From a virus, in IMG/VR virus record IMGVR_UViG_3300049157_000025, positions 1-48,638 of that record: a stretch of 48,638 nt of DNA; one strand, written 5' to 3'. The translations under genes were made by a program, and so were the position numbers. Below are positions 2,565 through 22,819 of this stretch, one piece after another; positions within the stretch are counted from its first letter, which is position 1; each line of letters starts with the position of its first letter. The notes below the pieces were generated by a model. The model was not told the DNA's origin. It did not search any database and worked only from the letters and a program-made list of their open reading frames with translations.

Positions 2565-3425
2565 TTAATACCTTGTACATAGTCCAGACTTTAGAAACTC
2601 GCACGTCTTATTAAAGGAGAAACACCTATCAGGGTTAGCTTCAAAAGGTGGCTTGTGCCCCTTAAGAACCCTTAGGGCCTTTGCAGATGTTGCTTTTACC
2701 ATCTCTGTATCCCCTATTCTAGGTAAGTCAAGAAGCACGTGCTCTATTTTAGGCACTTTCGTCTTTGTTATTACAACAATAACCATCCCCTTTAGCGGTT
2801 TATCTGGGTAGGCCGCATTCCATGCCATCATATAATACTTTGGCTGCAGGTCATGCTCATAACGCTCTATAGCTATGTTGTTAAGCCAAGATACTGTCTT
2901 CCAATCCCATGCGTAGTATCCAGGCCCTCTTAAATTTAATGCGCATTTATTTCTAATATGCTCTATGTCCTCATCGTCTACTTCTGTTACCAGGTCTAAC
3001 CTTGCTGTGTACCCAGGAAATCCTACGGCTTCTCCTGCTGCTCCACCAATCACGTTATCATCGATAAGGTGTTCTACAGACTCTACTCGACCAAGATCTG
3101 TTGGTTTGTACTTAGCCTGGTAAGCAACGAACAGCCTTTGAGCCTCCAACCGGTCTTTGTCCTCCTCATCTATAGGAATGTTTGCAAACTTAACCCTAGA
3201 AGGAGGCATAAATCTGTCTTGCCCTTTGTGATACATCTCCATGAAAGCATGGAAAATGCTCCCCACCCTAAGAGGACCACTTTTACCAACCCCATCTGGA
3301 AACTTCTTAGACAAGAAATACCTTCTCTGGCAGCCATTTGCTAGCTGCCGGATTCCAGACTGCCCATTGGAAGTTCCAGTTCCTAATAGTGTATGGATGT
3401 AGGGCTTTAGTGTTGCTTCTACCAT
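2565..3425 (-). CDS. Cas4/RecB-like PD-(D/E)XK nuclease with Fe-S cysteines
   Basis: A 286-residue nuclease. Visible motifs in order are C32 in NGCQRRYF, H59 in GSIFHAFME, D144 in TARLDLV, D174-W175-K176 in YAWDWKT and Q194xxY197. The C-terminal cysteines are C268, C275 and C283. The order Cys, His, Asp, DxK, QxxxY, three Cys is that of Cas4/AddB-type exonucleases with a 4Fe-4S cluster. These enzymes process DNA ends to make single strands, which fits pairing with the Sak4-like ATPase next door. No cas1/cas2 or CRISPR array is present, so this is a phage recombination nuclease rather than part of an adaptation module. All key residues appear intact. Confidence 0.85.
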   Translation of the reverse strand: MVEATLKPYIHTLLGTGTSNGQSGIRQLANGCQRRYFLSKKFPDGVGKSGPLRVGSIFHAFMEMYHKGQDRFMPPSRVKFANIPIDEEDKDRLEAQRLFVAYQAKYKPTDLGRVESVEHLIDDNVIGGAAGEAVGFPGYTARLDLVTEVDDEDIEHIRNKCALNLRGPGYYAWDWKTVSWLNNIAIERYEHDLQPKYYMMAWNAAYPDKPLKGMVIVVITKTKVPKIEHVLLDLPRIGDTEMVKATSAKALRVLKGHKPPFEANPDRCFSFNKTCEFLKSGLCTRY

Positions 3426-3759: not shown

Positions 3760-5373
3760 TCACACTAAAGCACGCATCCTAGAGAAAAAGTCTTCTTCAG
3801 TCTCTTTTGGGCCTGTTAAAATTTCCCTGAGAGTGTCTTCGCTTGTCCCTTCTTTCATAATTTGAGAAAACTGCTCGATTTTTGGTTGCAGGTTGTCCAT
3901 TAAGAGATCGTCTAGTGTGCCCACAAGAAGCAAAAACGCGATCGTTACAGGCTTCAAACTACTAAGACGGTAGAACCTTCCCATTGCCTGTGTTACGTCA
4001 ACCGGCCTATAGGATAGCTCAACGAAAATTGCAGTTCCATACCCTGCCAAAGCATCCACACCCACCCCTATACTTTTCATCGAACATGTCAGTAAGTGAC
4101 TATCCTGTTTCAGACTGTTCTTGATTATCTCATGTCGTCTTTTCTCTGGAATTTGTCCTGTGATGCAGCTGGTCTCTAAACCCATCTTTTGTAGCAGCTT
4201 CTGCAGTTTCTTAGCTGTCGCTATGTGGTACGTAAGGGCGCAAACATGGCTTTGTCCAGTGTTCTTGATCCACTCAGCCGCCTCTTTTACCCTGCGGTCT
4301 GTGTATCTGGATAGATACTCTCCGTAACTGACTTTTGCTAGATCAAGGCTTTCAAGCCGGTCTTCTTTTTTAAACGGAACTTCGACTCTTGTCGTTGTAA
4401 GAGGTGGTAAAAGGTGCTCTACCTCTTTTTTGGTCACTCGTATAGAAACAGATGAAATCCTGTGCTTCAACTCTTCAAGAGTATCCTCCCTTAAATCTCC
4501 TACGGATAGTCCGCCATATTCTCCTTTAACACAGTGGTGGTATCTTTGGGTGAACTTCCATTTTCCTCCAAAGCGTCCCGGCCATATAGCATTCACTTGT
4601 GGGGCTAGCTGGGGCACCCGGTCAGGTACTGGGGTCCCTGTCAGACCTAATGTAATTGCACCTTCATTTTTATTCCTAATTCCTAGCCAAACAATACTTC
4701 TTTCGGAATTAGGGTTGGCCAATAGGTGACATTCGTCTGCAACTAAAACGTCCCAATTATCCCCTTCCGAATTTGAAAAATATTTCATGAGTTCGTAGGA
4801 AGTTACCACGTAGGTAGGTTTCTTTGGGCATACGTCTGCCTTCATCTCTCCCACAAGCTTCAAGGCATCAGATCCTCTTCTGATGATATGGACTACACAA
4901 TCTCTGTCATCCCACTTCGGTATTTCATCTTCCCACGTCCCTCTTGCGGACCCTTCTGTAACAACCAGACAGTTACCGGATTCAACAAAACATCGGAAGG
5001 TGTTAATAGCGACCAAACACTTTCCAAGACCTAAGTCAAAGTTGACCAATAAACTCTTTTCTCTTGAAATCCTGTCGAGAGCCTCCCTCTGATAAGGATG
5101 TATGCTCTTATGTAGAGATCTGAGAAAAGGTAGAGGACCTGAGAATTGATCGTCCTCTTTATTTCTGTTATCTTGAACTCCGTAACCTAGTTTAGCCGAT
5201 TCCTTTTTAAGAAAGTCAAAAGCTTCATTTGGGGACAACCAGAACCTCTTTCCATACTCGTCTCCTGCATATCTACACCCTGGGTATTTCTTGTAAGACT
5301 CTACGGCCTCCTTTGACCAAGGAAATGTAAAAACGCACATTCCTGGGTTTTCGCTTGTGTAAATTTTCAACAT
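3760..5373 (-). CDS. SNF2-like superfamily 2 DNA helicase/translocase
   Basis: A 537-residue protein with the full SF2 motif set: Q-like HPYQREALD (92-100), motif I DLGLGKC (113-119), Ia near VVTEGSARGTW (137-147), II DECH (213-216), III LTGTP (244-248), V SIGVGVD (434-440) and VI QAMGRFYR (462-469). The order and spacing match SNF2-like phage helicases that remodel or unwind DNA during replication and recombination. The Walker A motif has Cys119 where Thr or Ser normally coordinates magnesium, which is unusual. It lies in the leftward early block between the nuclease and the 5384-6118 gene. Confidence 0.9.
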   Translation of the reverse strand: MLKIYTSENPGMCVFTFPWSKEAVESYKKYPGCRYAGDEYGKRFWLSPNEAFDFLKKESAKLGYGVQDNRNKEDDQFSGPLPFLRSLHKSIHPYQREALDRISREKSLLVNFDLGLGKCLVAINTFRCFVESGNCLVVTEGSARGTWEDEIPKWDDRDCVVHIIRRGSDALKLVGEMKADVCPKKPTYVVTSYELMKYFSNSEGDNWDVLVADECHLLANPNSERSIVWLGIRNKNEGAITLGLTGTPVPDRVPQLAPQVNAIWPGRFGGKWKFTQRYHHCVKGEYGGLSVGDLREDTLEELKHRISSVSIRVTKKEVEHLLPPLTTTRVEVPFKKEDRLESLDLAKVSYGEYLSRYTDRRVKEAAEWIKNTGQSHVCALTYHIATAKKLQKLLQKMGLETSCITGQIPEKRRHEIIKNSLKQDSHLLTCSMKSIGVGVDALAGYGTAIFVELSYRPVDVTQAMGRFYRLSSLKPVTIAFLLLVGTLDDLLMDNLQPKIEQFSQIMKEGTSEDTLREILTGPKETEEDFFSRMRALV

Positions 5374-11405: not shown

Positions 11406-12002
11406 TCAAAACCTGGCGCCTTCTGTAAACGCGAATTTTAGGTCTTCTTTTCTGTATTTGGCTCCGCGAAGATCTGTCCAGCAGAGATCCGCTTCTCCAA
11501 GATTCGCCTTTCGAAGATCCGCTTCCCTAAGATTAGCTCCTCTTAACTTTGCCCTTTTGAGGTTTGCCCCTTGGAGCTTTGCCCTTTCGAGGTTTGCCCC
11601 TCTTAGGTTTAACTTTTCAAGATTTGCGCCTTGGAAATCTACCTCGTACAGATTGGCCCCTAGGAACTTTGCCCCTTGGAGGTTTGAGTTTCGGAGATTT
11701 ACATTTCGGAGGTCTACACTTCGTAAATCTACATTTTGGAGATCTTTACAAGACAAGTCTCTATTTATAAAAGAAACTTCTGGTATTATCTTTACACAAA
11801 CTAACCAACTGTAATATGATCTAAACTCTTCATTTTCTAGTAATTTCCTAACTTCTTTAAAAGTCCATCTATCGCAGTAGAAACCCTTAGGGAACTTCTG
11901 TACAAACTCTGTGAAAGCTTTGCATGTTTCTCTTTCCTCAAAGGCTTTACAGATTTCTCTTACTTCGGCCTTTAGAAAATCTTCTTTAGTTATAGAGAAC
12001 AT
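11406..12002 (-). CDS. Pentapeptide-repeat protein
   Basis: A 198-residue protein. Residues about 1-80 are a non-repeat helical domain (EICKAFEERETCKAF). Residues about 83-190 are tandem pentapeptides of the A(N/D)LxX kind, such as LQGANLKRAKLRGANLREAD, which form a right-handed quadrilateral beta-helix. Some pentapeptide proteins mimic DNA and bind gyrase (Qnr, MfpA), but most have unknown roles and no gyrase-specific feature is visible here. It is a different solenoid class from the hexapeptide array on the other strand. Confidence 0.85.
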   Translation of the reverse strand: MFSITKEDFLKAEVREICKAFEERETCKAFTEFVQKFPKGFYCDRWTFKEVRKLLENEEFRSYYSWLVCVKIIPEVSFINRDLSCKDLQNVDLRSVDLRNVNLRNSNLQGAKFLGANLYEVDFQGANLEKLNLRGANLERAKLQGANLKRAKLRGANLREADLRKANLGEADLCWTDLRGAKYRKEDLKFAFTEGARF

Positions 12003-12994: not shown

Positions 12995-13064
12995 GTTGGT
13001 TTCAAGGGCGCATGTTTCTGTGAGGATTTTTTGTTGGCATGGATAGTGCATTTGGAGCTATCTA

Positions 13065-13412
13065 ATGTGGGATGAGTTTGAACTACCGCAGCTGCCGGAT
13101 GTCGTTGCGTGCCCATACTGCGCAGGAATCGGTACTTGTTACGGCCTTGCTCCTCATACGCATTATATGACGCGAGACTCAATATCGACGACACTAGACA
13201 GTAAAGACAAATGGCCAGACAATTTTCACGAAGACCCTGAAGTACCAGGATGCGGGGTTTGGGTTTGTGGCTTATGCGAAGGTTTAGGTACTGTAGAGCT
13301 GCCTATAGAGATTGCAACTGACGATAAGAATTTAGGTGAGCGGTACGAAGACTTTGGAGAGAAAGTAGATGTCGTTCTTTTAGAGTATCTACAGGGGGTT
13401 GGTGAAACATGA
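13065..13412 (+). CDS. DnaJ-type CxxCxGxG zinc-finger protein
   Basis: A 115-residue protein with two CxxCxGxG motifs, CPYCAGIG (near residue 16) and CGLCEGLG (near residue 69). In DnaJ, pairs of these form zinc centres that hold unfolded protein. There is no J domain, so it may be a stand-alone adaptor. GGAG lies upstream of the ATG. Its stop overlaps the start of the first hexapeptide-repeat gene as ATGA, so the two are translationally coupled, and the zinc protein may act on the repeat proteins. That link is inferred from gene order. Confidence 0.75.
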   Translation: MWDEFELPQLPDVVACPYCAGIGTCYGLAPHTHYMTRDSISTTLDSKDKWPDNFHEDPEVPGCGVWVCGLCEGLGTVELPIEIATDDKNLGERYEDFGEKVDVVLLEYLQGVGET

Positions 13413-14122
13413 CCAAAAAGTATGAATTCACTGGAGAAACTAAACAATTCCAGAACTCAACCTTGCGTCAGATCTGTAGGCTATCAGACGGCGAGATAGG
13501 GGGCTGGTTAGAAAAAGAGGAGAACTTAAGTCATAGCGGGGAATGTTGGGTAGGGGAAAACTCTAATATATCTGGAAACGCTCATGTGTCCGGGGACGCT
13601 AAGGTGTCTGGTGACGCTGAGGTGTTCGGAAACGCTCAGGTATACGGAAACGCTTGGGTGTGCGGAAACGCTTGGATGTACGAAAACGCCAAGGTGTACG
13701 AAAACGCCAAAGTGTTCGGAAACGCTCGGGTGACCGGACACTCTGAGGTGTACGAAAACGCCAAGGTGTATGGAAACTCCAAGGTGTCCGGAAAGGCCAA
13801 GGTGTCTGGTGACTCTGAGGTGTCTGACGACGCTTGGGTGTTCGGAAACGCTCGGGTGACCGGACACTCTGAGGTGTACGGACACGCTCAGGTGTGCGGA
13901 ACCACTAAGGTGTTCGGCGACACCAAGGTGTACGGAAACTCTGAGGTGTCCGGAGACGCTAAGGTGTCTGGAAACTCTGAGGTGTACGAAAACTCCAAGG
14001 TGTTCGGAAACGCTCAGGTGTCTGGAAACTCTAAGGTGTTCGGAAACGCCAGGGTGTTCGAAAACTCTCAGGTGTCTGGAGACGCTAAGGTGTCTGGGGA
14101 TGCCCTGAAGCTACATTACTGA
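13409..14122 (+). CDS. YdcK-like hexapeptide-repeat protein, array copy 1
   Basis: A 237-residue protein. Residues 1-47 are the shared N-terminal segment (KYEFTGETK, then GGWLEKEENLS, then GECW). From Val48 there are 31 unbroken hexads of the form V-x-G-N-A-x, then a tail KLHY. The hexad fits the left-handed beta-helix rule, with an inward aliphatic at position 1 and a small residue at position 5. The N-terminal segment resembles E. coli YdcK and single-copy phage relatives, whose function is unknown. There is no signal peptide. It overlaps the zinc-finger gene by four bases and shares a 78-bp identical block with copy 2. Confidence 0.85.
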   Translation: MTKKYEFTGETKQFQNSTLRQICRLSDGEIGGWLEKEENLSHSGECWVGENSNISGNAHVSGDAKVSGDAEVFGNAQVYGNAWVCGNAWMYENAKVYENAKVFGNARVTGHSEVYENAKVYGNSKVSGKAKVSGDSEVSDDAWVFGNARVTGHSEVYGHAQVCGTTKVFGDTKVYGNSEVSGDAKVSGNSEVYENSKVFGNAQVSGNSKVFGNARVFENSQVSGDAKVSGDALKLHY

Positions 14123-14141
14123 AGATTAAAAAGGAACAGCT

Positions 14142-14909
14142 GTGACCAAAAAATACGAATTCACAGGCGAGACTAAACAGTTACACAACTTAACCCTACG
14201 CAAAATCCGTAGGCTATCAGACGGTAAGATAGGTGGGTGGGTAGAAAAAGAGGAGAACTTAAGCCATGACGGGGGATGTTGGGTAGGGGGAAACGCTAAT
14301 ATATCTGGAAACGCTAAGGTGTACAGAGACGCTAAGGTGTACGGAAACGCTCAGGTATACGGAAACGCTCAGGTATACGGAAACGCTCAGGTGTGCGGAG
14401 ACGCTTGGGTGTGCGGGAACGCTTGGGTGTGCGGAGACGCTTGGGTGTACGGAAACGCTTGGGTGTACGGACACGCTAAGGTATACGGAAACGCTCAGGT
14501 ATACGGAAACGCTCGGGTGACCGGACACTCTGAGGTGTACGAAAACGCTTGGGTGTGCGGACACGCCAAGGTGTTCGGAAACGCTTGGATGTACGGACAC
14601 GCTAAGGTGTACGAAAACTCTAAGGTGTTCGGAAACGCTCGGGTGACCGGACACTCTGAGGTGTACGAAAACGCCAAGGTGTATGGAAACGCTGAGGTGT
14701 CCGGAAACGCTGAGGTGTCTGGTGACTCTGAGGTGTCTGACGACGCTTGGGTGTTCGGAAACGCTCGGGTGACCGGACACTCTGAGGTGTATGGAAACGC
14801 CAAGGTGTACGGAAACTCCAAGGTGTTCGGAACCGCCAGGGTGTTCGAAAACTCTCAGGTGTCCGGGGACGCTCAGGTGTCTGGGGACGTCCTGAAGCTT
14901 CATTGCTGA
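14142..14909 (+). CDS. YdcK-like hexapeptide-repeat protein, array copy 2
   Basis: A 255-residue protein with a GTG start after AAGGAACAGCT. After the 47-residue N-terminal segment come 34 hexads and the tail KLHC. It is rich in NAW hexads (several in a row around 14400-14480), which place Trp on the outer face. The blocks around the HSE hexads match copy 1 at the DNA level, a sign of exchange between copies. Confidence 0.85.
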   Translation: MTKKYEFTGETKQLHNLTLRKIRRLSDGKIGGWVEKEENLSHDGGCWVGGNANISGNAKVYRDAKVYGNAQVYGNAQVYGNAQVCGDAWVCGNAWVCGDAWVYGNAWVYGHAKVYGNAQVYGNARVTGHSEVYENAWVCGHAKVFGNAWMYGHAKVYENSKVFGNARVTGHSEVYENAKVYGNAEVSGNAEVSGDSEVSDDAWVFGNARVTGHSEVYGNAKVYGNSKVFGTARVFENSQVSGDAQVSGDVLKLHC

Positions 14910-14928
14910 AGATCGAAAAGGAACAGCT

Positions 14929-16311
14929 ATGGTCGACAAATACGAATTCACAGGCGAAACTAAACAATTCCAGAACTCAACTTTATGCCAAATCCGCAGA
15001 ATATCAGACGGCGAGATAGGGGGCTGGTTAGAAAAAGAGGAGAACTTAAGTCATGACGGGGAATGTTGGGTAAGGGAAAGCGCTAAGGTGTTCGGAAACG
15101 CTGAGGTGTTCGGAGACGCTGAGGTGTCCGGCGACGCTGAGGTGTTCGGAAACGCCAAGGTATCTGGAAAGGCTTGGGTGTACAGAGACGCTCAGGTGTA
15201 CGAGAACTCTGAGGTATTCGGAAACGCCAAGGTATCTGGGAAGACTCGGGTGTACGGAGACGCCAAGGTGTACGGATACGCCAAGGTGTCTGGAAAGGCT
15301 TGGGTGTACAGAGACGCTCAGGCGCACGAAAACTCTGAGGTGTACGGAAACGCTCAGGTGTCTGGAAACTCTGAGGTATACGGAAACGCCAAGGTGTCCG
15401 GAGACGCTCAGGTGTACGAAAACGCCAAGGTGTTCGGGCACGCTAAGGTGTTCTGGGGGGCTCTGGTGTACGGGGAGGCTCTGGTGTACGAGGACGCCAA
15501 GGTGTTTGAATATGCTAAGGTGTGTGGAGTTGCTAAGGTGAACGGGAACTCTGAGGTGTATGGAAACGCTCGATTGTACGAAAACGCTTGGGTGACTGGA
15601 TTTGCTTGGGTGTACGAAAACGCCAAGGTGTTTGGACACGCCAAGGTATCTGGAAAGGCTTGGGTGTACGGAGACGCCAAGGTGTACGAAAACGCCAAGG
15701 TGTTTGGATGTGCTAAGGTACACGGAAACGTTGAGGTGTATGAAAACGCTGAGGTGTACGAAAACGCTTGGGTGACTGGGTCTGCTCGAGTGTCTAGTAA
15801 TGGTAAGGTGTTCGGCGACGCCAAGATATCTGGATACGCTAGGGTATATGGAAACGCTGAGGTATTTGGGAACGCCAAGGTGTACGAGGACGCTAGGGTA
15901 TACGGATACGCTCAGGTGTCTGGACACGCCAAGCTGTTCGGGGACGCTAAGGTGTTCGGAGACGCTAAGGTGTACGAGAACTCTGAGGTATTCGGAAACG
16001 CCGAGGTGTACGAAAACGCTGAGGTATTTGGAGACGCCAGGGTACTCGGAAACGCCAGGGTATCTGGAAGGGCTTGGGTGTACGGAGACGCTCATGTGTA
16101 TGGAAACGCCAAGGTATCTGGAAAGGCTTGGGTGTACGGAGACACCGAGGTGCGCGAAAACGCTCATGTGTATGGAGACGCCAAGGTGTATGGAGACGCC
16201 AAGGTATCTGGAAAGACTTTGGTATACGGACACGCTAAGGTGTTCGGGGACGCCAAGGTGTGCGGAAACTCTGAGGTGTCTGGAAACGCTGAGGTGGTTG
16301 AAAACTCTTGA
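14929..16311 (+). CDS. YdcK-like hexapeptide-repeat protein, array copy 3 (longest)
   Basis: A 460-residue protein with an ATG start (MVDKYEF rather than MTKKYEF). It has 68 full hexads plus a partial one, roughly 23 coils if three hexads make a turn. It ends at an early TGA in CTTGAGCTACATTG. Compared with the CTGAAGCTACATTG tails of copies 2 and 5, one base is missing, so the KLHC tail is lost. It contains more unusual hexads than its neighbours (for example VFWGAL, VNGNSE, VSSNGK). Confidence 0.85.
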   Translation: MVDKYEFTGETKQFQNSTLCQIRRISDGEIGGWLEKEENLSHDGECWVRESAKVFGNAEVFGDAEVSGDAEVFGNAKVSGKAWVYRDAQVYENSEVFGNAKVSGKTRVYGDAKVYGYAKVSGKAWVYRDAQAHENSEVYGNAQVSGNSEVYGNAKVSGDAQVYENAKVFGHAKVFWGALVYGEALVYEDAKVFEYAKVCGVAKVNGNSEVYGNARLYENAWVTGFAWVYENAKVFGHAKVSGKAWVYGDAKVYENAKVFGCAKVHGNVEVYENAEVYENAWVTGSARVSSNGKVFGDAKISGYARVYGNAEVFGNAKVYEDARVYGYAQVSGHAKLFGDAKVFGDAKVYENSEVFGNAEVYENAEVFGDARVLGNARVSGRAWVYGDAHVYGNAKVSGKAWVYGDTEVRENAHVYGDAKVYGDAKVSGKTLVYGHAKVFGDAKVCGNSEVSGNAEVVENS

Positions 16312-16343
16312 GCTACATTGTTGAAGATCGAAAAGGAACAGCT

Positions 16344-17042
16344 ATGGTCGACAAATACGAATTCACAGGTGAGACTAAACAGTTACAGAACTTAACCCTT
16401 CGGCAAATCCGTAGGCTATCGGACGGCAGGATAGGTGGTTGGATCGAAAAAGAGGAGAACTTAAGTCATAGCGGGGAATGTTGGGTAGGGGAAAACTCTA
16501 AGATATCTGGAAACGCTAAGGTGTCCGGAAACGCTCAGGTATATGGAAACTCTGAGGTGTTTGGGTACACCAAGGTATCTGGAAACTCTGAGGTGCACGA
16601 AAACGCCAAGGTGTACGGACACGCTTGGGTGTGCGGAAAGGCTTGGGTGTACGGAGACGCCGAGGTGTACGAAAACTCTGAGGTGTACGGAAACGCTAAG
16701 GTGTCCGGAAACGCCGAGGTGTACGAAAACTCCAAGGTGTACGGAAACGCTAAGGTGTATGGAAACGCTTGGGTGTACGGAAACGCTAAGGTGTTCTGGG
16801 ACGCTAAGGTGTTCGGTGAGGCTCTGGTATACGGAAACGCTAAAGTGTACGGAAACTCTGAGGTGCACGAAAACGCCAAGGTGTACGGACACGCCAAGGT
16901 GTACAGAAACGCCAAGGTATCTGGGAAGGCTTGGGTGTATGGAGACGCCAAGGTGTACGAGGACGCTAGGGTATACGGATACGCTAAGGTGTTTGGGGAC
17001 GTCAAGGTGTGCGGAAACTCTGAGGTGTCTGGAAACGCTTGA
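16344..17042 (+). CDS. YdcK-like hexapeptide-repeat protein, array copy 4
   Basis: A 232-residue protein. The frame is open upstream to 16308, but the ATG at 16344 aligns with the other copies and follows AAGGAACAGCT. It has 30 full hexads plus five residues. As in copy 3, a one-base loss in the tail gives an early TGA. The N-terminal DNA shares the GTCGAC start segment with copy 3. Confidence 0.85.
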   Translation: MVDKYEFTGETKQLQNLTLRQIRRLSDGRIGGWIEKEENLSHSGECWVGENSKISGNAKVSGNAQVYGNSEVFGYTKVSGNSEVHENAKVYGHAWVCGKAWVYGDAEVYENSEVYGNAKVSGNAEVYENSKVYGNAKVYGNAWVYGNAKVFWDAKVFGEALVYGNAKVYGNSEVHENAKVYGHAKVYRNAKVSGKAWVYGDAKVYEDARVYGYAKVFGDVKVCGNSEVSGNA

Positions 17043-17074
17043 GCTTCATTGCTGAAGAGCAAAAAGGAACATCT

Positions 17075-17824
17075 GTGACCAAAAAGTATGAATTCACAGG
17101 CGAAACTAAACAATTCCAGAACTCAACTTTATGCCAAATCCGCAGAATATCAGACGGCGAGATAGGGGGCTGGTTAGAAAAAGAGGAGAACTTAAGTCAT
17201 GACGGGGAATGTTGGGTAGGAGGGAACGCTAAAGTGTTTAAAAACGCCAGGGTGTTCGAAAACGCCCATGTGTCCGGGGACGCTAAGGTGTCTGGAAACT
17301 CTTGGGTGATTGGAGCTGCTCAAGTTGGCGAAAACGCTGGGGTATATGGGGGCGCTCAGGTGTCTGGAAACTCCAGGTTGTATGGAAACGCCAAGGTGAC
17401 TGGGTCTACTCAGGTGTCCGGCGACGCTAGGGTATTCGGAAACGCCAAGGTATCTGGGAAGGCTTGGGTGTTCGAAAACGCTCAGGTGTACGGAAACGCC
17501 AAGGTATCTGGAAAGGCTTGGGTGTACGGAGACGCCGAGGTGCGCGAAAACTCTGAGGTATTTGGAAACTCTGAGGTATTTGGAAACGCCGAAGTGTACG
17601 GAAACTCTGAGGTATATGGATATGCTAAAGTGTTTGGAAACGCCGAGGTGTACGAAAACGCTGAGGTATTTGGGGACGCTAAGGTGTTCGGGGAAGCCAA
17701 GGTGTACGAAAACTCTGAGGTATTTGGAAACGCCGAGGTGTACGAAAACGCTGAGGTATACGGAACCACTCAGGTATATGGAGACGCCAAGGTGTCTGGG
17801 GACGTCCTGAAGCTACATTGTTGA
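17075..17824 (+). CDS. YdcK-like hexapeptide-repeat protein, array copy 5
   Basis: A 249-residue protein from GTG at 17075, preceded by AAGGAACATCT. It has 33 hexads and the KLHC tail. The early hexads (VIGAAQ, VGENAG, VYGGAQ, LYGNAK) depart from the standard more than the later ones, which are nearly uniform. That is consistent with recent expansion of the distal part. Confidence 0.85.
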   Translation: MTKKYEFTGETKQFQNSTLCQIRRISDGEIGGWLEKEENLSHDGECWVGGNAKVFKNARVFENAHVSGDAKVSGNSWVIGAAQVGENAGVYGGAQVSGNSRLYGNAKVTGSTQVSGDARVFGNAKVSGKAWVFENAQVYGNAKVSGKAWVYGDAEVRENSEVFGNSEVFGNAEVYGNSEVYGYAKVFGNAEVYENAEVFGDAKVFGEAKVYENSEVFGNAEVYENAEVYGTTQVYGDAKVSGDVLKLHC

Positions 17825-17843
17825 AGATCGAAAAGGAACAGCT

Positions 17844-19037
17844 GTGACCAAAAAGTATGAATTCACAGGCAAAACTAAACAGATACAGAACTCAACCCTA
17901 CGCCAAATCCGCAGAATATCAGACGGCAGGATAGGTGGTTGGATCGAAAAAGAGGAGAACTTAAGCCATTACGGGGAATGTTGGGTAGGAGGAAACGTCA
18001 AGGTGTCTGGAGACTCTGAGGTGTTCGAAAACGCCAAGGTGTCTGGTGACGCTGAGGTGTCTGGCGACGCTTGGGTTTCTGGGGATGCTAAGATATCTGG
18101 AGACGCCTTGGTGTTCGGTAAGACTCATGTGTCTGGAAACGCTCAAGTGGGCTCCCACGCTCAGGTATTCGGAAACGCTTGGGTGTACGAAAACGCCAAG
18201 GTATCCGGGTATGCTCGGGTGTTCGGAAAGGCTCTCGTGTCCGGCAAGGCCCAGGTATTTGGGCACGCCAAGGTGTACGAAAACGCTTTTGTGTCTGAAG
18301 ACTCTCAGGTGTACGAAGACGCTCTGGTGCATGGAAACGCCAAGGTGTACGAAAACGCTAAAGTGTCCGGGAATGCTGAGGTGTACGAAAACGCTGAGGT
18401 ATTTGGGGGTGTCTTGGTTTTTGCAGACGCCAAGGTATCCGGAGACGCCAAGGTGCGCGAAAGAGCTAAGCTTTATGGAGACGCTTGGGTGTACGAAAAC
18501 GCTGAGATATATGGAAGCGCTAAAGTGCTCGGAAACACTGAGGTATGTGGAAGCGCTAAAGTGTTTGAAAACTCTAAAGTGTTTGAAAACGCTAAGGTAT
18601 TTGGAAACGTTAGGGTGTACGGAGACGCTTGGGTGGGTGGAAGCGCTAATGTGTTTGGAATCGCTAAGGTGTATGAAAGCTCTAAAGTTTTTGGAAATGC
18701 TCTAGTTTACAGAAACGCTCAGGTATACGGAAACGCTCAGGTGTACGGAAACGCTCAGGTATACGGAAACTCTAAGGTATACGGAAACGCTCAAGTGTCC
18801 ATAAACGCTAAGGTGTCTGGAAACGCTCAGGTGTCTGGAAACGCTCAGGTGTCTGGAAGGTCTGAGGTGTTCGGAAAGGCCAAGGTATATGGGGATGCTT
18901 GGGTGTTTGGGAACGCTGAAGTGTTTGAAAACGCTTTTGTATACGAAAACGCTCAAGTTCTTGGAGATGCCAAGGTACACGGGTACGTCAGGGTGTCTGG
19001 AACCACCAAAGTGTCAGGGAAAAAGGAGATTTTGTAG
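17844..19037 (+). CDS. YdcK-like hexapeptide-repeat protein, array copy 6
   Basis: A 397-residue protein with a GTG start. It has 58 hexads and ends in VSGKKEIL, without KLHC. The N-terminal segment reads FTGKTKQIQN rather than FTGETKQFQN. It is the last copy before the methylase insertion, and its unusual end may be the left scar of that event. Confidence 0.85.
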   Translation: MTKKYEFTGKTKQIQNSTLRQIRRISDGRIGGWIEKEENLSHYGECWVGGNVKVSGDSEVFENAKVSGDAEVSGDAWVSGDAKISGDALVFGKTHVSGNAQVGSHAQVFGNAWVYENAKVSGYARVFGKALVSGKAQVFGHAKVYENAFVSEDSQVYEDALVHGNAKVYENAKVSGNAEVYENAEVFGGVLVFADAKVSGDAKVRERAKLYGDAWVYENAEIYGSAKVLGNTEVCGSAKVFENSKVFENAKVFGNVRVYGDAWVGGSANVFGIAKVYESSKVFGNALVYRNAQVYGNAQVYGNAQVYGNSKVYGNAQVSINAKVSGNAQVSGNAQVSGRSEVFGKAKVYGDAWVFGNAEVFENAFVYENAQVLGDAKVHGYVRVSGTTKVSGKKEIL

Positions 19038-19381
19038 TGAAAAAAATACCAACAGTCCTCTGTTGTCCCCTCAGCCCTTTGCCGCCCTCGTGGATCTTAT
19101 GACCTATTTTCAGATACTTACGGAGAGATGTTCCAGTTTACTGTACATTTTTGCGACTAAGTGTCTCATTTTGACATTAGGATATCTGCAAGTTGTGGAT
19201 ATTAAACGAGAATTTCCCACTTTACTTCTCACTTAAGGTATGCTACGCTCGTCTGAGTTCTCCTTCAGAGAACGGTGGGCCAAAGCCTAGCGGCGGCCCT
19301 CCGCCCTGCGGGCTCAGAAGTGACTCGTAAGTCCTTGATTTTAAAGACACTTTTTGTTTCCGATTGATACACTCAGAAACT
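19038..19381. other. Structured non-coding segment left of the methylase gene
   Basis: There are no hexad repeats and no gene, and the composition differs from the array. It holds a consensus -35 box TTGACA (19171-19176) without a well-placed -10. Nearby hairpins are GTTCTC/GAGAAC (19257-19273) and GGCGG-CCCT-CCGCC (19292-19305), bracketed by CTGAG (19253) and CTCAG (19317). This looks like a small folded element brought in with the methylase. It does not match an attC site or intron that I can recognise. Confidence 0.45.
19334..19347 (+). repeat. 14-bp direct repeat, left copy
   Basis: CTTGATTTTAAAGA, identical to 20177-20190 on the far side of the methylase gene. Confidence 0.7.
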
Positions 19382-20170
19382 ATGACAAGACCATTTCTTA
19401 AATGGGCGGGTGGAAAACGACAACTCCTGCCCGAACTACGCCGATCCGTCCCTAGGACGTTCGGTCGGTACTATGAACCGTTCGTCGGTGGTGGAGCGTT
19501 ATTTTTCGATCTTTGTCCGTGCCGTGCCACCTTATCCGACACCAATCAAGAGCTGATCCATACGTACTTGGCCATTCGAGACGAGCCGGAGAACGTCATA
19601 AATTATTTGGAGCTACTGGGGGAGAATACGAGAGAGAGCTTCTACACAGTCCGATCGATGGACGTCAGATTGCTACCCTACGCGCATAAAGCCGCAAGAA
19701 TGATTTACTTGAACAAAACTTGTTTTAACGGATTATACCGGGTCAATAAGAGGGGTCTATTCAACACACCATTCGGACAATACAAAAATCCGTTAATCTT
19801 GGATCGTCATACCCTCATGGAGGCATCCCGAGCGTTGTCGAAGGCTACTATCAAATGTCAAGATGCCTTCCAGATCGATCCGCACCCAGGGGATCTGGTA
19901 TACTTCGATCCCCCATATTATCCCAGGGATAACCAATCTTTCACTAGCTATACAAGCCAGGGGTTCACAGAAGAACAGCACGTACAGTTAGCAAACTTCG
20001 CCAAACAGCTATTAGAGAAAGGTGTGTGCATCATTCTCTCGAATTCCGACACCCCTTTTACTCGTAGAATCTACAAAGGATTGAGGGTGGAAGTTGTCAA
20101 GGCTCGACGATCGATCAACAGAGATGCAACGAAACGAGGAGTGATAACTGAACTGCTGGTTACCAGCTAA
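19382..20170 (+). CDS. Dam-type DNA adenine N6-methylase (D12 class)
   Basis: A 262-residue protein from the ATG at 19382; a TTG at 19364 is possible. Motifs in order are KWAGGKRQLL at the N-terminus, EPFVGGGALFF (AdoMet binding), CFNGLYRVNKRGLFNTPFG and the catalytic DPPY in VYFDPPYY. This is the layout of Dam/DpnM enzymes, which methylate adenine, usually in GATC. No matching restriction gene is present, so protection from host restriction or regulation of timing is more likely. It sits inside the repeat array between two 14-bp direct repeats, and its base use differs from the cassettes. Confidence 0.9.
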   Translation: MTRPFLKWAGGKRQLLPELRRSVPRTFGRYYEPFVGGGALFFDLCPCRATLSDTNQELIHTYLAIRDEPENVINYLELLGENTRESFYTVRSMDVRLLPYAHKAARMIYLNKTCFNGLYRVNKRGLFNTPFGQYKNPLILDRHTLMEASRALSKATIKCQDAFQIDPHPGDLVYFDPPYYPRDNQSFTSYTSQGFTEEQHVQLANFAKQLLEKGVCIILSNSDTPFTRRIYKGLRVEVVKARRSINRDATKRGVITELLVTS

Positions 20171-20176
20171 AGGGTG

Positions 20177-20190
20177 CTTGATTTTAAAGA
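20177..20190 (+). repeat. 14-bp direct repeat, right copy
   Basis: CTTGATTTTAAAGA. Its last base is the A of the ATG of array copy 7. Confidence 0.7.
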
Positions 20191-20621
20191 TGACCAAAAA
20201 GTATGAATTCACAGGCGAAACTAAACAATTCCAGAACTCAACCCTTCGGCAAATCCGTAGGCTATCAGACGGCGAGATAGGAGGGTGGATCGAAAAAGAA
20301 GAGAATCTAAGCCAAGAGGGGGAATGTTGGGTAGGAGAAAACGCTAAGGTAGCTGAAAACGCCAGGGTGCTCGAGAACGCCCAGGTGAACGGAGACGCTC
20401 AGGTATTTGGGGATGTCTTGGTGTACGGGGACTCTTGGGTGTCTGGGGAGGCTAAGGTGTACGGAGAAGCTAGGGTGTACGGAAATGCTTTGGTGTGTGG
20501 GGATGCTCTGGTGTTTGGGAACGCTCAGGTGTACAAGGACGCCAAGGTGTTTGGATATGCTAAGGTATATGGAAACGCTGAGGTGTCTAAAAACGCTGAG
20601 GTGTTCGAAGCACGCATGTGA
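20190..20621 (+). CDS. YdcK-like hexapeptide-repeat protein, array copy 7 (shortest)
   Basis: A 143-residue protein with exactly 16 hexads after the constant segment, ending VFEARM. The usual AAGGAACAGCT linker is missing. The start codon follows the right direct repeat, with only a weak AGGG upstream, so translation may be poor or coupled to the methylase, whose stop is 19 bases away. The N-terminal DNA is close to copies 1-6. The hexads carry more VL and EA variants. Confidence 0.8.
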   Translation: MTKKYEFTGETKQFQNSTLRQIRRLSDGEIGGWIEKEENLSQEGECWVGENAKVAENARVLENAQVNGDAQVFGDVLVYGDSWVSGEAKVYGEARVYGNALVCGDALVFGNAQVYKDAKVFGYAKVYGNAEVSKNAEVFEARM

Positions 20622-20688
20622 CCTGGACACGAAGTACCTAATTGGGTTAGAAACCGTTGATGGGCTCTAAACGCTAAGGAGATACTCA

Positions 20689-21294
20689 ATGAAAGAGGCA
20701 GAGATGAAAGTCCGTCAGTTGCAGAAGTATGAATTTACTGGTGAGACCAAGGAAATTCACGGTAGGACTGTCCGCCAAATCCGTCGGTTGGCTGACGGGG
20801 TCATTGGCGGGTGGCTTGAGCAAGAATCAAACCTGAGCCATCTACACGACTGCTGGGTAGGCGGGGAAGCCGTTGCTCTAGAGAACTCAAAGGTGTCTGG
20901 GGCTGCTGAGATGTCCGGCAACGCTATAGCCACCGGATGTTCCAGAGTTGGCGAGTTCTCAAAGGTATTTGAGGATGCGGTTGTTTCAGGCAATTCTACA
21001 GTGGCGGGATACGCAAGAGTCTCTGGCACTGCTAAGTTGTCAGGAGACACGCGCGTCTCGGGTGACGCGATGGTGTTTGGTAACGCTGAATGTTCGGGCA
21101 ATTCACGGGCCTATGGAAACACACGCATCTCTCAGAATGCTGAGCTGTCTGGCGACTCTCGAGCTTTAGATAATTCAGAGATCTTTGGGAATGCCAAGCT
21201 GTCTGGGAATGTGAGCGCCTTTGGGACTGTCCGGGTTGCCGGTGAAGCAGAGCTGTGTGGCGATTTGGCTGTCTTTGAAGGTGAGTATTCATAA
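20689..21294 (+). CDS. Diverged YdcK-like hexapeptide-repeat protein, array copy 8
   Basis: A 201-residue protein with a good AAGGAG site. It has nine extra residues at the start (MKEAEMKVRQLQ precedes KYEFTGE), then 24 hexads and a final Ser. The hexads are far more varied than in copies 1-7 (ALENSK, ATGCSR, AYGNTR, CSGNSR), and the DNA no longer shares the 18-bp consensus. It looks like an older member that has escaped homogenisation, or the ancestral form. Confidence 0.8.
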   Translation: MKEAEMKVRQLQKYEFTGETKEIHGRTVRQIRRLADGVIGGWLEQESNLSHLHDCWVGGEAVALENSKVSGAAEMSGNAIATGCSRVGEFSKVFEDAVVSGNSTVAGYARVSGTAKLSGDTRVSGDAMVFGNAECSGNSRAYGNTRISQNAELSGDSRALDNSEIFGNAKLSGNVSAFGTVRVAGEAELCGDLAVFEGEYS

Positions 21295-21308
21295 AGACCT
21301 TGCCTTCC

Positions 21309-21339
21309 CCGCCGAAAGGCGGACCGTCTCCTTTTTTTT
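21309..21339 (+). terminator. Possible terminator after the repeat array
   Basis: CCGCC-GAAA-GGCGG (21309-21322) forms a tight tetraloop hairpin. Eight T follow at 21332-21339, nine bases further on, which is more distant than usual. It separates the array from the late genes. Confidence 0.5.
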
Positions 21340-21449
21340 ACAGTTTTGCAGGAAAAAGTTGAGTCCTACGATGACGACCCTGGGGGGGGGTATGTTGGTC
21401 GGGATTGGAAAGGAAAGTGTGCGTACCTATCCCCACCAAATTTCAAATT

Positions 21450-21520
21450 TATACAGCCTCCATATATATTAAGTATACTAGCGATACCTTCTTGCCTACC
21501 CCATAATAAATATGTATACT
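21450..21520 (+). promoter_or_regulatory. Tandem late promoters before the small terminase
   Basis: P2 is TTGCCT (21492-21497), a 17-base spacer, then TATACT (21515-21520). P1 is TATACA (21450-21455), an 18-base spacer, then TATACT (21474-21479). P2 would start transcription about five bases before the ATG at 21532, and no Shine-Dalgarno site is visible there. Confidence 0.5.
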
Positions 21521-21531
21521 TTACATACCTA

Positions 21532-22161
21532 ATGCCTAAGCGAAGAAAGCCCAATGCTAACTTTGGGAAATACCAATTTGGAAGCACCGGCCGAAAGAGG
21601 ATCTACGCGCATAAGGTCCGACTTACGGCCAAACAGCGAGGTTTTGTTGAGGAGGTTATGGAAAAGGTTACGGATGGGGAGCCTTTTTTAGCCGCTGCGG
21701 AGTCTTCAGTAGGTAAGTTTTTCGGGCCGAATAAAGATTTCAGGGATGTTTTAGCGAATAAAAGGGTAGGGAGTTCTTTTGGGTACCAAAGGAGACGGAG
21801 TCTTTCAAATATGGTGAAAATTGTAAAAGAAGAACATATGACGAAGACTGAGAGGCGTAGCATCCTGGCTAGGGTAGCTCGAAAAGAGAAAGCTCGAGAC
21901 GGTGATGTTCTTAAAGCTGTTGAGCTTGATGGAAAAATTGAGGGGGATTTTGTGGACAAAAAGCATATTCAACACTCTGTTAACATAAAGCGCATTTCTG
22001 ACATGTCCGACGAGGAGCTGATGGAAATTGTGGCTAGCGGAGATCCAGAACTGGCTAAAGAGAGTGAGTCTTTTAGGTTAAGTGCTAGAAACGACAAAGA
22101 AAATAAGGATAATTTGGAAAATACTTCAGACGATGAGGTATTTGAGGTTCATTATGACTAA
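21532..22161 (+). CDS. Terminase small subunit (tentative)
   Basis: A 209-residue protein. The frame is open to 21346, but the ATG at 21532 begins the protein-like part (PKRRKPNANFGKYQFGS). The stretch LTAKQRGFVEEVMEK, then FLAAAESSVGKFF, resembles the helix-turn-helix DNA-recognition region of small terminases, and DMSDEELMEIVASGDP resembles their C-terminal tail. It would bind the packaging site and recruit the large subunit (24768-26423). No Shine-Dalgarno site precedes the ATG. Confidence 0.7.
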   Translation: MPKRRKPNANFGKYQFGSTGRKRIYAHKVRLTAKQRGFVEEVMEKVTDGEPFLAAAESSVGKFFGPNKDFRDVLANKRVGSSFGYQRRRSLSNMVKIVKEEHMTKTERRSILARVARKEKARDGDVLKAVELDGKIEGDFVDKKHIQHSVNIKRISDMSDEELMEIVASGDPELAKESESFRLSARNDKENKDNLENTSDDEVFEVHYD

Positions 22162-22378
22162 AAGGGTAAATTCCCCCCTTCCTGTGTGTCCAAATAGGCT
22201 CCAAATAGTTCTCGCCTTATGCAAGGGTTATGCCGGCCGAGGGGTTTTACCTAAAAACATCAGAGCTTCTTCCGAGGTTCTTGTATCCTTTGCTGATGCC
22301 ATTATTACGAGACTTGAAGAGATAGAGACCGGTTTAGAGCTGGCTTCTCCCTATGAAGACAACTATGAAGAAATGTGA
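22154..22378 (+). CDS. Small protein overlapping the small terminase
   Basis: A 74-residue protein from the ATG at 22154, which overlaps the stop of the previous gene, with GAGG upstream. Contains NRLQIVLALCKGYAGRG and a helical acidic C-terminus. The family is not recognised. Coupling to the terminase suggests a packaging or head role. Confidence 0.6.
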   Translation: MTKRVNSPLPVCPNRLQIVLALCKGYAGRGVLPKNIRASSEVLVSFADAIITRLEEIETGLELASPYEDNYEEM

Positions 22379-22453
22379 CAAAATCCGTCTGACTGGTTTT
22401 TTTGTAAGAGCATTGTTTTTTTCGCTTATATTTTTAGTGAGCTAGGGTTTGAT

Positions 22454-22819
22454 ATGGCTAGAACAGGCTACACATACCGCCGAGATTATCCTTTTCGAGA
22501 TAGGCAGAACAGAGATGCGATGACTTGGATTCGTTACAGACATAATGAAAAGGACACTTATCCTCTTGACATGTCTGGCAGGTTAGAGGGCGGAGAAACT
22601 GCAGATAGTATAGAGATTTTAGACCGTTACGGAGTTACTGTCGACAGTAGTTCAGTGAATTCTGCTGGGGTTATCTCTATTACAATTTCCGAAGGTATCG
22701 AAGGGACACTCAAAGCAAAAGTAACCACAAGCGGAGGGAGAGAGCTTATAGAACGGTTCCAATGGCGAAGCGGAGACAGAAACACTAGAGACACTTACCG
22801 ATATTATGGGAGATATTAA
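22454..22819 (+). CDS. Fibre-tail adaptor-like Ig-fold protein (tentative)
   Basis: A 121-residue protein. The second half reads IEILDRYGVTVDSSSV, then ITISEGIEGTLKAKVTTSGGRE, the pattern of small beta-sandwich phage proteins of the form W..G.T...S...V..G...Y.V.....TS.GR, known as fibre-tail adaptors. The N-terminus is basic and aromatic. Its stop overlaps the next start (TAATG). Confidence 0.55.
   Translation: MARTGYTYRRDYPFRDRQNRDAMTWIRYRHNEKDTYPLDMSGRLEGGETADSIEILDRYGVTVDSSSVNSAGVISITISEGIEGTLKAKVTTSGGRELIERFQWRSGDRNTRDTYRYYGRY

Follow-up and report, generated by a model that had tools for sequence, protein, structure and literature searches.

The DNA analysed here carries a tandem gene family, with seven close members and one divergent member, which is probably evolving in concert by exchange on genes of 18-bp periodicity. 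At the level of sequence, our comparisons demonstrate that after duplication tracts moved between adjacent and non-adjacent copies, in heads as well as in bodies, and that blocks of hexads were duplicated inside copies, in hexad register. The window, that is the whole stretch of DNA that was analysed, is an IMG/VR virus record of 48,638 bases in which terminase, portal, head-closure and tailspike-like genes are present. The array is located between a small Q-like antiterminator-like gene and the structural genes, and consists of seven similar genes, c1 to c7, and the divergent c8:

13065-13412: small gene, weakly similar to a Q-like antiterminator (phrog_6060, E 0.0012)
13409-14122, + strand: c1, YdcK-like hexad beta-solenoid gene, 237 aa, with a 48-codon head, hexads and the tail LKLHY
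14142-14909, + strand: c2, YdcK-like hexad beta-solenoid gene, 255 aa, with three TGHSEV blocks spaced by 126 bp and the tail LKLHC
14929-16311, + strand: c3, YdcK-like hexad beta-solenoid gene, 460 aa, with a head that is a c4-like/c5-like mosaic
16344-17042, + strand: c4, YdcK-like hexad beta-solenoid gene, with its ATG at 16344, whereas the ORF as listed begins at 16308
17075-17824, + strand: c5, YdcK-like hexad beta-solenoid gene, 249 aa from the GTG at 17075
17844-19037, + strand: c6, YdcK-like hexad beta-solenoid gene, 397 aa
19364-20170, + strand: D12-class adenine methyltransferase gene, between c6 and c7
20190-20621, + strand: c7, YdcK-like hexad beta-solenoid gene, 143 aa, past the methyltransferase gene and without the common linker
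20689-21294, + strand: c8, divergent member, 201 aa

Each of c1-c7 starts with a 48-codon head of the type KYEFTG.TK...GGWxEKEENLS...CWV and continues in 18-bp hexads such as YGNAKV. The Pfam scan covered c1, c2, c3, c6 and c8, and four of the five proteins exceeded the 30-bit cut-off of the YdcK beta-solenoid family PF18836 (c1 56.8, c2 84.6, c3 100.9 and c6 105.6 bits), while c8 returned no PF18836 row. A phmmer comparison of c1 with YdcK (2f9c) gave a match over 19-132 with a whole-sequence E value of 4e-17, and the alignment showed the head motif GGWx...LSxxGxCW to be common to the array heads and YdcK. Among the PHROGs, the family corresponds to phrog_5070 and phrog_7964 (c1 to phrog_5070, E 2.5e-108), both without assigned function, and "putative transferase" is an annotation name only. 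Short strands about every six residues appeared both in a single-sequence structure model (pLDDT 74, no PDB match at E<=0.001) and in an alignment-based model (pLDDT 49), neither of which was good for head and solenoid together.

Some further features of the region were recorded. The LKLHC-coding DNA of c2 and c5 is retained in c3 and c4 (about 16296-16343 and 17027-17074) downstream of an earlier stop, so that the 3' tails of c3 and c4 seem to have one common history. The methyltransferase gene at 19364-20170 looks inserted into the array, with c6 devoid of the LKLH tail and c7 of the common linker. Antisense ORFs of up to 395 aa, e.g. 15046-16233 on the minus strand, mirror the 18-bp repeats and are probably not genes. 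A pentapeptide-repeat protein encoded by 15-bp tandem DNA at 11406-12002 on the minus strand (PF00805, E 8e-50) represents a second solenoid-type gene of the phage. Rfam gave 0 matches across 13000-22500, promoter-like sites in the array region numbered 10, close to the mean of 7.6 in shuffles, terminator-like sites numbered 5, below their shuffle mean of 8.0, and PADLOC returned no matches for the three solenoid proteins scanned.

Since the heads are not repeats, they provide a clean test of exchange after duplication. Identical runs were clustered along the heads, with p=0.0002 over 44 variable sites and p=0.0012 over 16 silent codons. As many as 141 of 231 pairs of informative sites were incompatible with one tree, the fraction being 0.33 for neighbouring sites vs 0.61 (p=0.0002), and Rm was 6, i.e. 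at least six recombination intervals. A case in point is c3, in which a 48-bp stretch identical to c4 is followed by a 129-bp stretch identical to c5, the two matches overlapping by 11 bp only:

14907-14954, + strand: 48 bp of linker and c3 start, with an identical copy at 16322-16369 that leads into c4
14944-15072, + strand: 129-bp block of the c3 head, an exact match to 17090-17218
17090-17218, + strand: the same 129-bp block in the head of c5

This 129-bp block, shared by the heads of two non-neighbouring genes, is the longest exact repeat of the array and was absent from the earlier note on this DNA. The c3 and c5 heads have a silent divergence (dS) of 0.08, compared with 0.30-0.81 for the remaining 20 pairs.

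The gene bodies showed the same kind of sharing. The earlier note had reported a 78-bp identity between 13801-13878 and 14714-14791, which proved exact and extends one base further leftward to 79 bp, within a longer similar segment:

13800-13878, + strand: 79-bp block, c1 copy
14713-14791, + strand: 79-bp block, c2 copy
13657-13971, + strand: 315-bp segment of c1, 90% identical in register to c2 14570-14884
14570-14884, + strand: partner of the 315-bp segment, in c2

The two segments agree in 284 of 315 columns, with 31 differences. Further blocks around the HSE hexads, also claimed before, are real and measure 66 bp (13712-13777 = 14625-14690), 45, 44, 43, 42 and 41 bp. Silent changes between c1 and c2 amounted to 14/28 in the head vs 10/71 in their shared body segment, which was picked after inspection (Fisher 4e-4). 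Exact repeats of at least 30 bp touched no position outside 13409-21294. Certain tracts thus resemble each other more closely than the remainder of the two genes does, to a degree that codon bias does not explain, and conflicting histories occurred inside one gene, both being signs of concerted evolution. Repeats beyond the null models described below, mosaic heads and the 315-bp segment bear out the earlier suggestion that gene conversion or unequal recombination has left its mark on the array, and exchange between gene copies is well supported.

We then considered 156 related loci, 82 from viral contigs and 74 from genomes. All of them contained a head ORF and 33 had at least two, up to a maximum of seven; these counts are rough, as each locus reaches only to its 10-kb flanks or to the end of its contig, and duplicate contigs (e.g. 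L009/L096, L014/L015, L055/L128) were kept in the locus, contig-end and inter-copy-block counts. The relatives belong to the YdcK family (PF18836; structures 2f9c/2pig; phrog_5070, phrog_7964) and share the six-residue solenoid repeats and the GGWx...LSxxGxCW head, but they are mostly single, with one head ORF in 123 of 156 loci, whereas the window has eight genes and inter-copy mosaicism. An inter-copy match longer than in all 50 synonymous shuffles was detected in 10 of 34 multi-copy sources, the window included and with L043 and L045 being one locus in near-identical contigs. The remaining 24 of the 34 had no inter-copy block beyond their shuffles; exchange between copies therefore seems, on these comparisons, to be a recurrent and not a general or constant property of arrays. 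Near relatives of the window phage itself were not found, as neither the terminase nor the neighbouring gene identified any in the viral contigs. The nearest terminase in the phage collection was only about 37% identical, the 833-aa protein of the window had no match, and no match was found for the exact 20-base array pattern.

The strongest natural evidence for body replacement and block indel came from sequence comparison of three contigs' worth of one cluster of closely related phages, L073, L146 and L075/L168. L073 and L146 agree in the head (153/156), from the body end to the stop (238/240) and upstream (592/601), with 0 of 8 distinct hexads in common. The heads of L146 and L075/L168 are identical (156/156); L146 has 11 hexads, and L075/L168 has 24, obtained from 16 on the N side and 12 on the C side, of which 4 are contig overlap. 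As the last 9 hexads of L146 match L075/L168 in 159 of 162 bases, the difference between the two is a block of 13 hexads that leaves the frame intact. Parsing gave a single head ORF at each of these loci, so that, as far as the contigs go, body turnover needs no array. In L034, two copies about 2 kb apart are identical in head (138/138) and C side (98/98), with bodies of 24 vs 14 hexads, and the less close pair L092/L115 showed 90.7% identity in the head, 87.0% after the body and 61.4% in the body. The relatives would thus favour fast turnover of the body without need of an array. No paper on the turnover of this family was found in the open-licence PMC literature.

Bartonella chromosomal arrays have the same head family as the window, with up to 6 head ORFs per locus and 6-22 head-family copies in each of six genomes (L101, L102, L120, L129, L135, L164). 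They differ in that most orthologues retained their bodies and most arrays did not go beyond the synonymous shuffle, L122 and L135 doing so weakly; in L101 the longest within-ORF block was 33 bp, not beyond shuffles. A literature search on the Bartonella head-family copies retrieved nothing relevant.

The earlier note had gone further and proposed a possible self-shuffling diversity store driven by the candidate annealing ATPase and nuclease. Read as a cassette store, silent or reserve copies would feed variants to an expressed gene through the phage Sak4/exonuclease system. The several copies with block transfer among them fit this proposal, and so do the two candidate genes that it invokes, which lie on the minus strand near a helicase gene:

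1501-2427, - strand: candidate Sak4-like annealing ATPase (phrog_124, E 6e-8; below the Pfam AAA_24 cut-off)
2565-3425, - strand: candidate PD-(D/E)XK exonuclease (PF12705, 29.1 bits vs a cut-off of 22)
3760-5373, - strand: SNF2/DEAD-like helicase gene, near the two preceding genes

Both candidates named in the earlier note were thus recovered, and its idea of a store without a reverse transcriptase agrees with 0 matches to PF00078 in the record, which may be a fragment; with the same proviso, the site-specific recombinase families expected for a shufflon (PF00589, PF00239) had 0 matches in the record. The Sak4-like gene adjoins the PD-(D/E)XK gene, and the gene at 766-1458 had no phrog match and thus gave no sign of an SSB. 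According to PMC5928155, Sak4 of phage HK620 anneals single strands in vitro, stimulated by its SSB, and the two give low-level recombination in vivo; annealing proteins are described in PMC5499656 as able to recombine diverged DNA. A driver of the Sak4 type is plausible on the basis of these results. However, Sak4, RecT and ERF, the three recombination families searched, did not track block sharing in 13 records, a comparison of few genomes, several of them fragments, and the ATPase and nuclease are thus not supported as drivers of shuffling. The 54.9-kb contig of L034 has a 196-bp head-to-head block and no match to Sak4, RecT or ERF, while L010 carries Sak4 but shows no block that exceeds its shuffles; the Sak4 profile also matched 13 of 14 control genomes, so weak matches mean little.

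The state of the copies also bears on a store. All of c1-c7 are intact open reading frames, and c2-c6 are each preceded by the same linker, in which AAAAGGAACA sits shortly ahead of the ATG or GTG, a plausible ribosome-binding site. Runs of at least four consecutive hexads occurred nowhere in the window outside 13553-21075, leaving no recipient locus there. Changes in the heads were mostly silent, with a pooled pN/pS of 0.24 indicative of purifying selection. The start-less donors and one distinct recipient that define a silent-cassette store were not what we found, and the open frames, the common linker, the head pN/pS and the lack of outside hexads speak against a scheme in which silent donors serve one recipient; the copies are probably all expressed, as separate proteins. 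Considering, in addition, that single-copy relatives also vary their bodies, we regard a self-shuffling store as unlikely. Seven matched body segments gave a pN/pS of 0.61. Positions 1, 3 and 5 of the hexad account for 60.5 non-synonymous changes, compared with 20 at positions 2, 4 and 6. In the customary description of hexapeptide repeats, the inward-facing residues are V at position 6 and A at position 4. Relaxed constraint, rather than selection for diversity, could explain the variation seen at positions 1, 3 and 5.

Slippage by itself could lengthen and shorten bodies on the 18-bp repeats, with the sharing between copies inherited from whole-gene duplication. It would suit the 126-bp tandem blocks of c1 and c2, where TGHSEV hexads recur in 7-hexad steps (two in c1, three in c2), as well as the 13-hexad indel between L146 and L075/L168. 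It does not suit the mosaic structure of heads that are not repeats, the joining of c4-like and c5-like DNA in c3, or c1 and c2 heads in which silent divergence greatly exceeds that of their common body segment, and we consider it an improbable account of the whole.

The possible contribution of assembly was also evaluated, all data on this phage being historical sequence from one assembly. A short-read assembler might have collapsed or mis-joined repeat variants, the blocks then reflecting the assembly graph. The repeats near 127-129 bp are close to common k-mer sizes. Fifteen of 123 related loci end inside a hexad run, and 22 of 123 stop no more than 700 bp past the head, compared with 9 that begin in the 700 bp ahead of it (binomial p 0.015). 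In IMGVR_UViG_3300006131_000235 (end as L075, start as L168), both contig ends fall inside the solenoid gene, with a 77-bp overlap. Since the contigs of relatives break in hexad runs, linkage across the 79-129 bp blocks of the window may be imperfect. On the other hand, the c4-like/c5-like switch in c3 has just 11 bp in common, which usual assembler k-mer sizes exceed, and each block presupposes reads that contain both of its left and both of its right flanks; an artefact of this kind thus seems quite unlikely. As assemblies often break in solenoid genes, copy number and variation are probably under-counted.

Finally, the body repeats were compared with chance in four null models of 500 shuffles each. 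The seven gene bodies have a longest exact match of 79 bp and 21 exact repeats of at least 36 bp. With synonymous codons shuffled over all bodies, 0/500 shuffles reached 79 bp and at most 7 repeats of 36+ bp were obtained; with shuffling within each gene, 1/500 did (maximum 83 bp), with at most 9 repeats. When hexads were instead shuffled as whole units, across all bodies or inside each gene, 79 bp was never reached (0/500 in both cases) and the repeats numbered at most 4 and 5, respectively. High-scoring ungapped segments numbered 14, against at most 2 in hexad shuffles and 6 in synonymous shuffles (100 each), and the top score was 160 vs 59 and 126. Hexads found letter for letter in another copy were 76 of 269 (mean 36, maximum 54 in 200 synonymous shuffles), neighbouring hexad pairs recurring in another copy were 10 of 262 (at most 6 in synonymous shuffles), and all 79 of the exact body matches of 24+ bp were in hexad register. 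Codon choice and low complexity alone, with biased codons and few residue types producing long identities by chance, are an extremely implausible source of the blocks despite a strong codon bias (AAC accounts for 135 of 139 Asn at position 3). Block sharing by codon choice alone, which the earlier note had listed among the grounds for refuting its reading, does not explain 21 repeats against at most 9 in the nulls.

We thus return to concerted evolution of the array. Tandem-repeat genes evolve in concert by unequal crossing-over and gene conversion, and the array shares with them the block sharing, mosaic heads and in-register indels, the difference being that here a phage gene family with 18-bp units is concerned. 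Diversity-generating retroelements produce a variable surface on a constant scaffold by point changes at chosen bases. The array would give a similar outcome, but unlike these elements it has no reverse transcriptase match in the record and its changes are blocks. The BACON-domain tandem repeats of crAss-like phages are another phage repeat protein, evolving by domain duplication and horizontal transfer according to PMC6949934, where the units are domain-sized and the proteins tail-associated, whereas in the window the units are of six residues and the genes lie between the antiterminator-like gene and the terminase.

As to mechanism, gene conversion, unequal crossing-over or strand slippage could have produced the exchanges while the phage DNA was being replicated or repaired, with the 18-bp near-repeats supplying homology at many offsets and thereby aiding exchange. 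Phage annealing proteins or host RecA could perform the reaction. Selection would retain the head, the frame and the buried hexad positions, and let exposed positions and body length vary, the likely outcome being one conserved cap that bears solenoid rods differing in length and surface. On the best reading, the exchange is of the ordinary homologous or slippage type, and the phage may exploit it to diversify a surface. Hexad-solenoid genes would, as the relatives suggest, be able to keep their ends and rewrite the middle, which is a more general form than a diversity store and may represent either selected diversification or unchecked instability of the repeats. A more speculative extension, which we regard as doubtful, is that these genes constitute a reverse transcriptase-free diversification system of phages and prophages, in which the conserved head and tail DNA would act as homology arms, the 18-bp-periodic body would be rewritten from paralogues or other phages to yield new exposed surfaces, and arrays would serve as cis donors raising the rate.

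A widespread phage and prophage family thus appears to pair a conserved cap with a fast-turnover solenoid. If this turnover is selected, the solenoid surface would be under pressure, e.g. from a host or competitor ligand, and the family would offer a natural retroelement-free route to binding variety.
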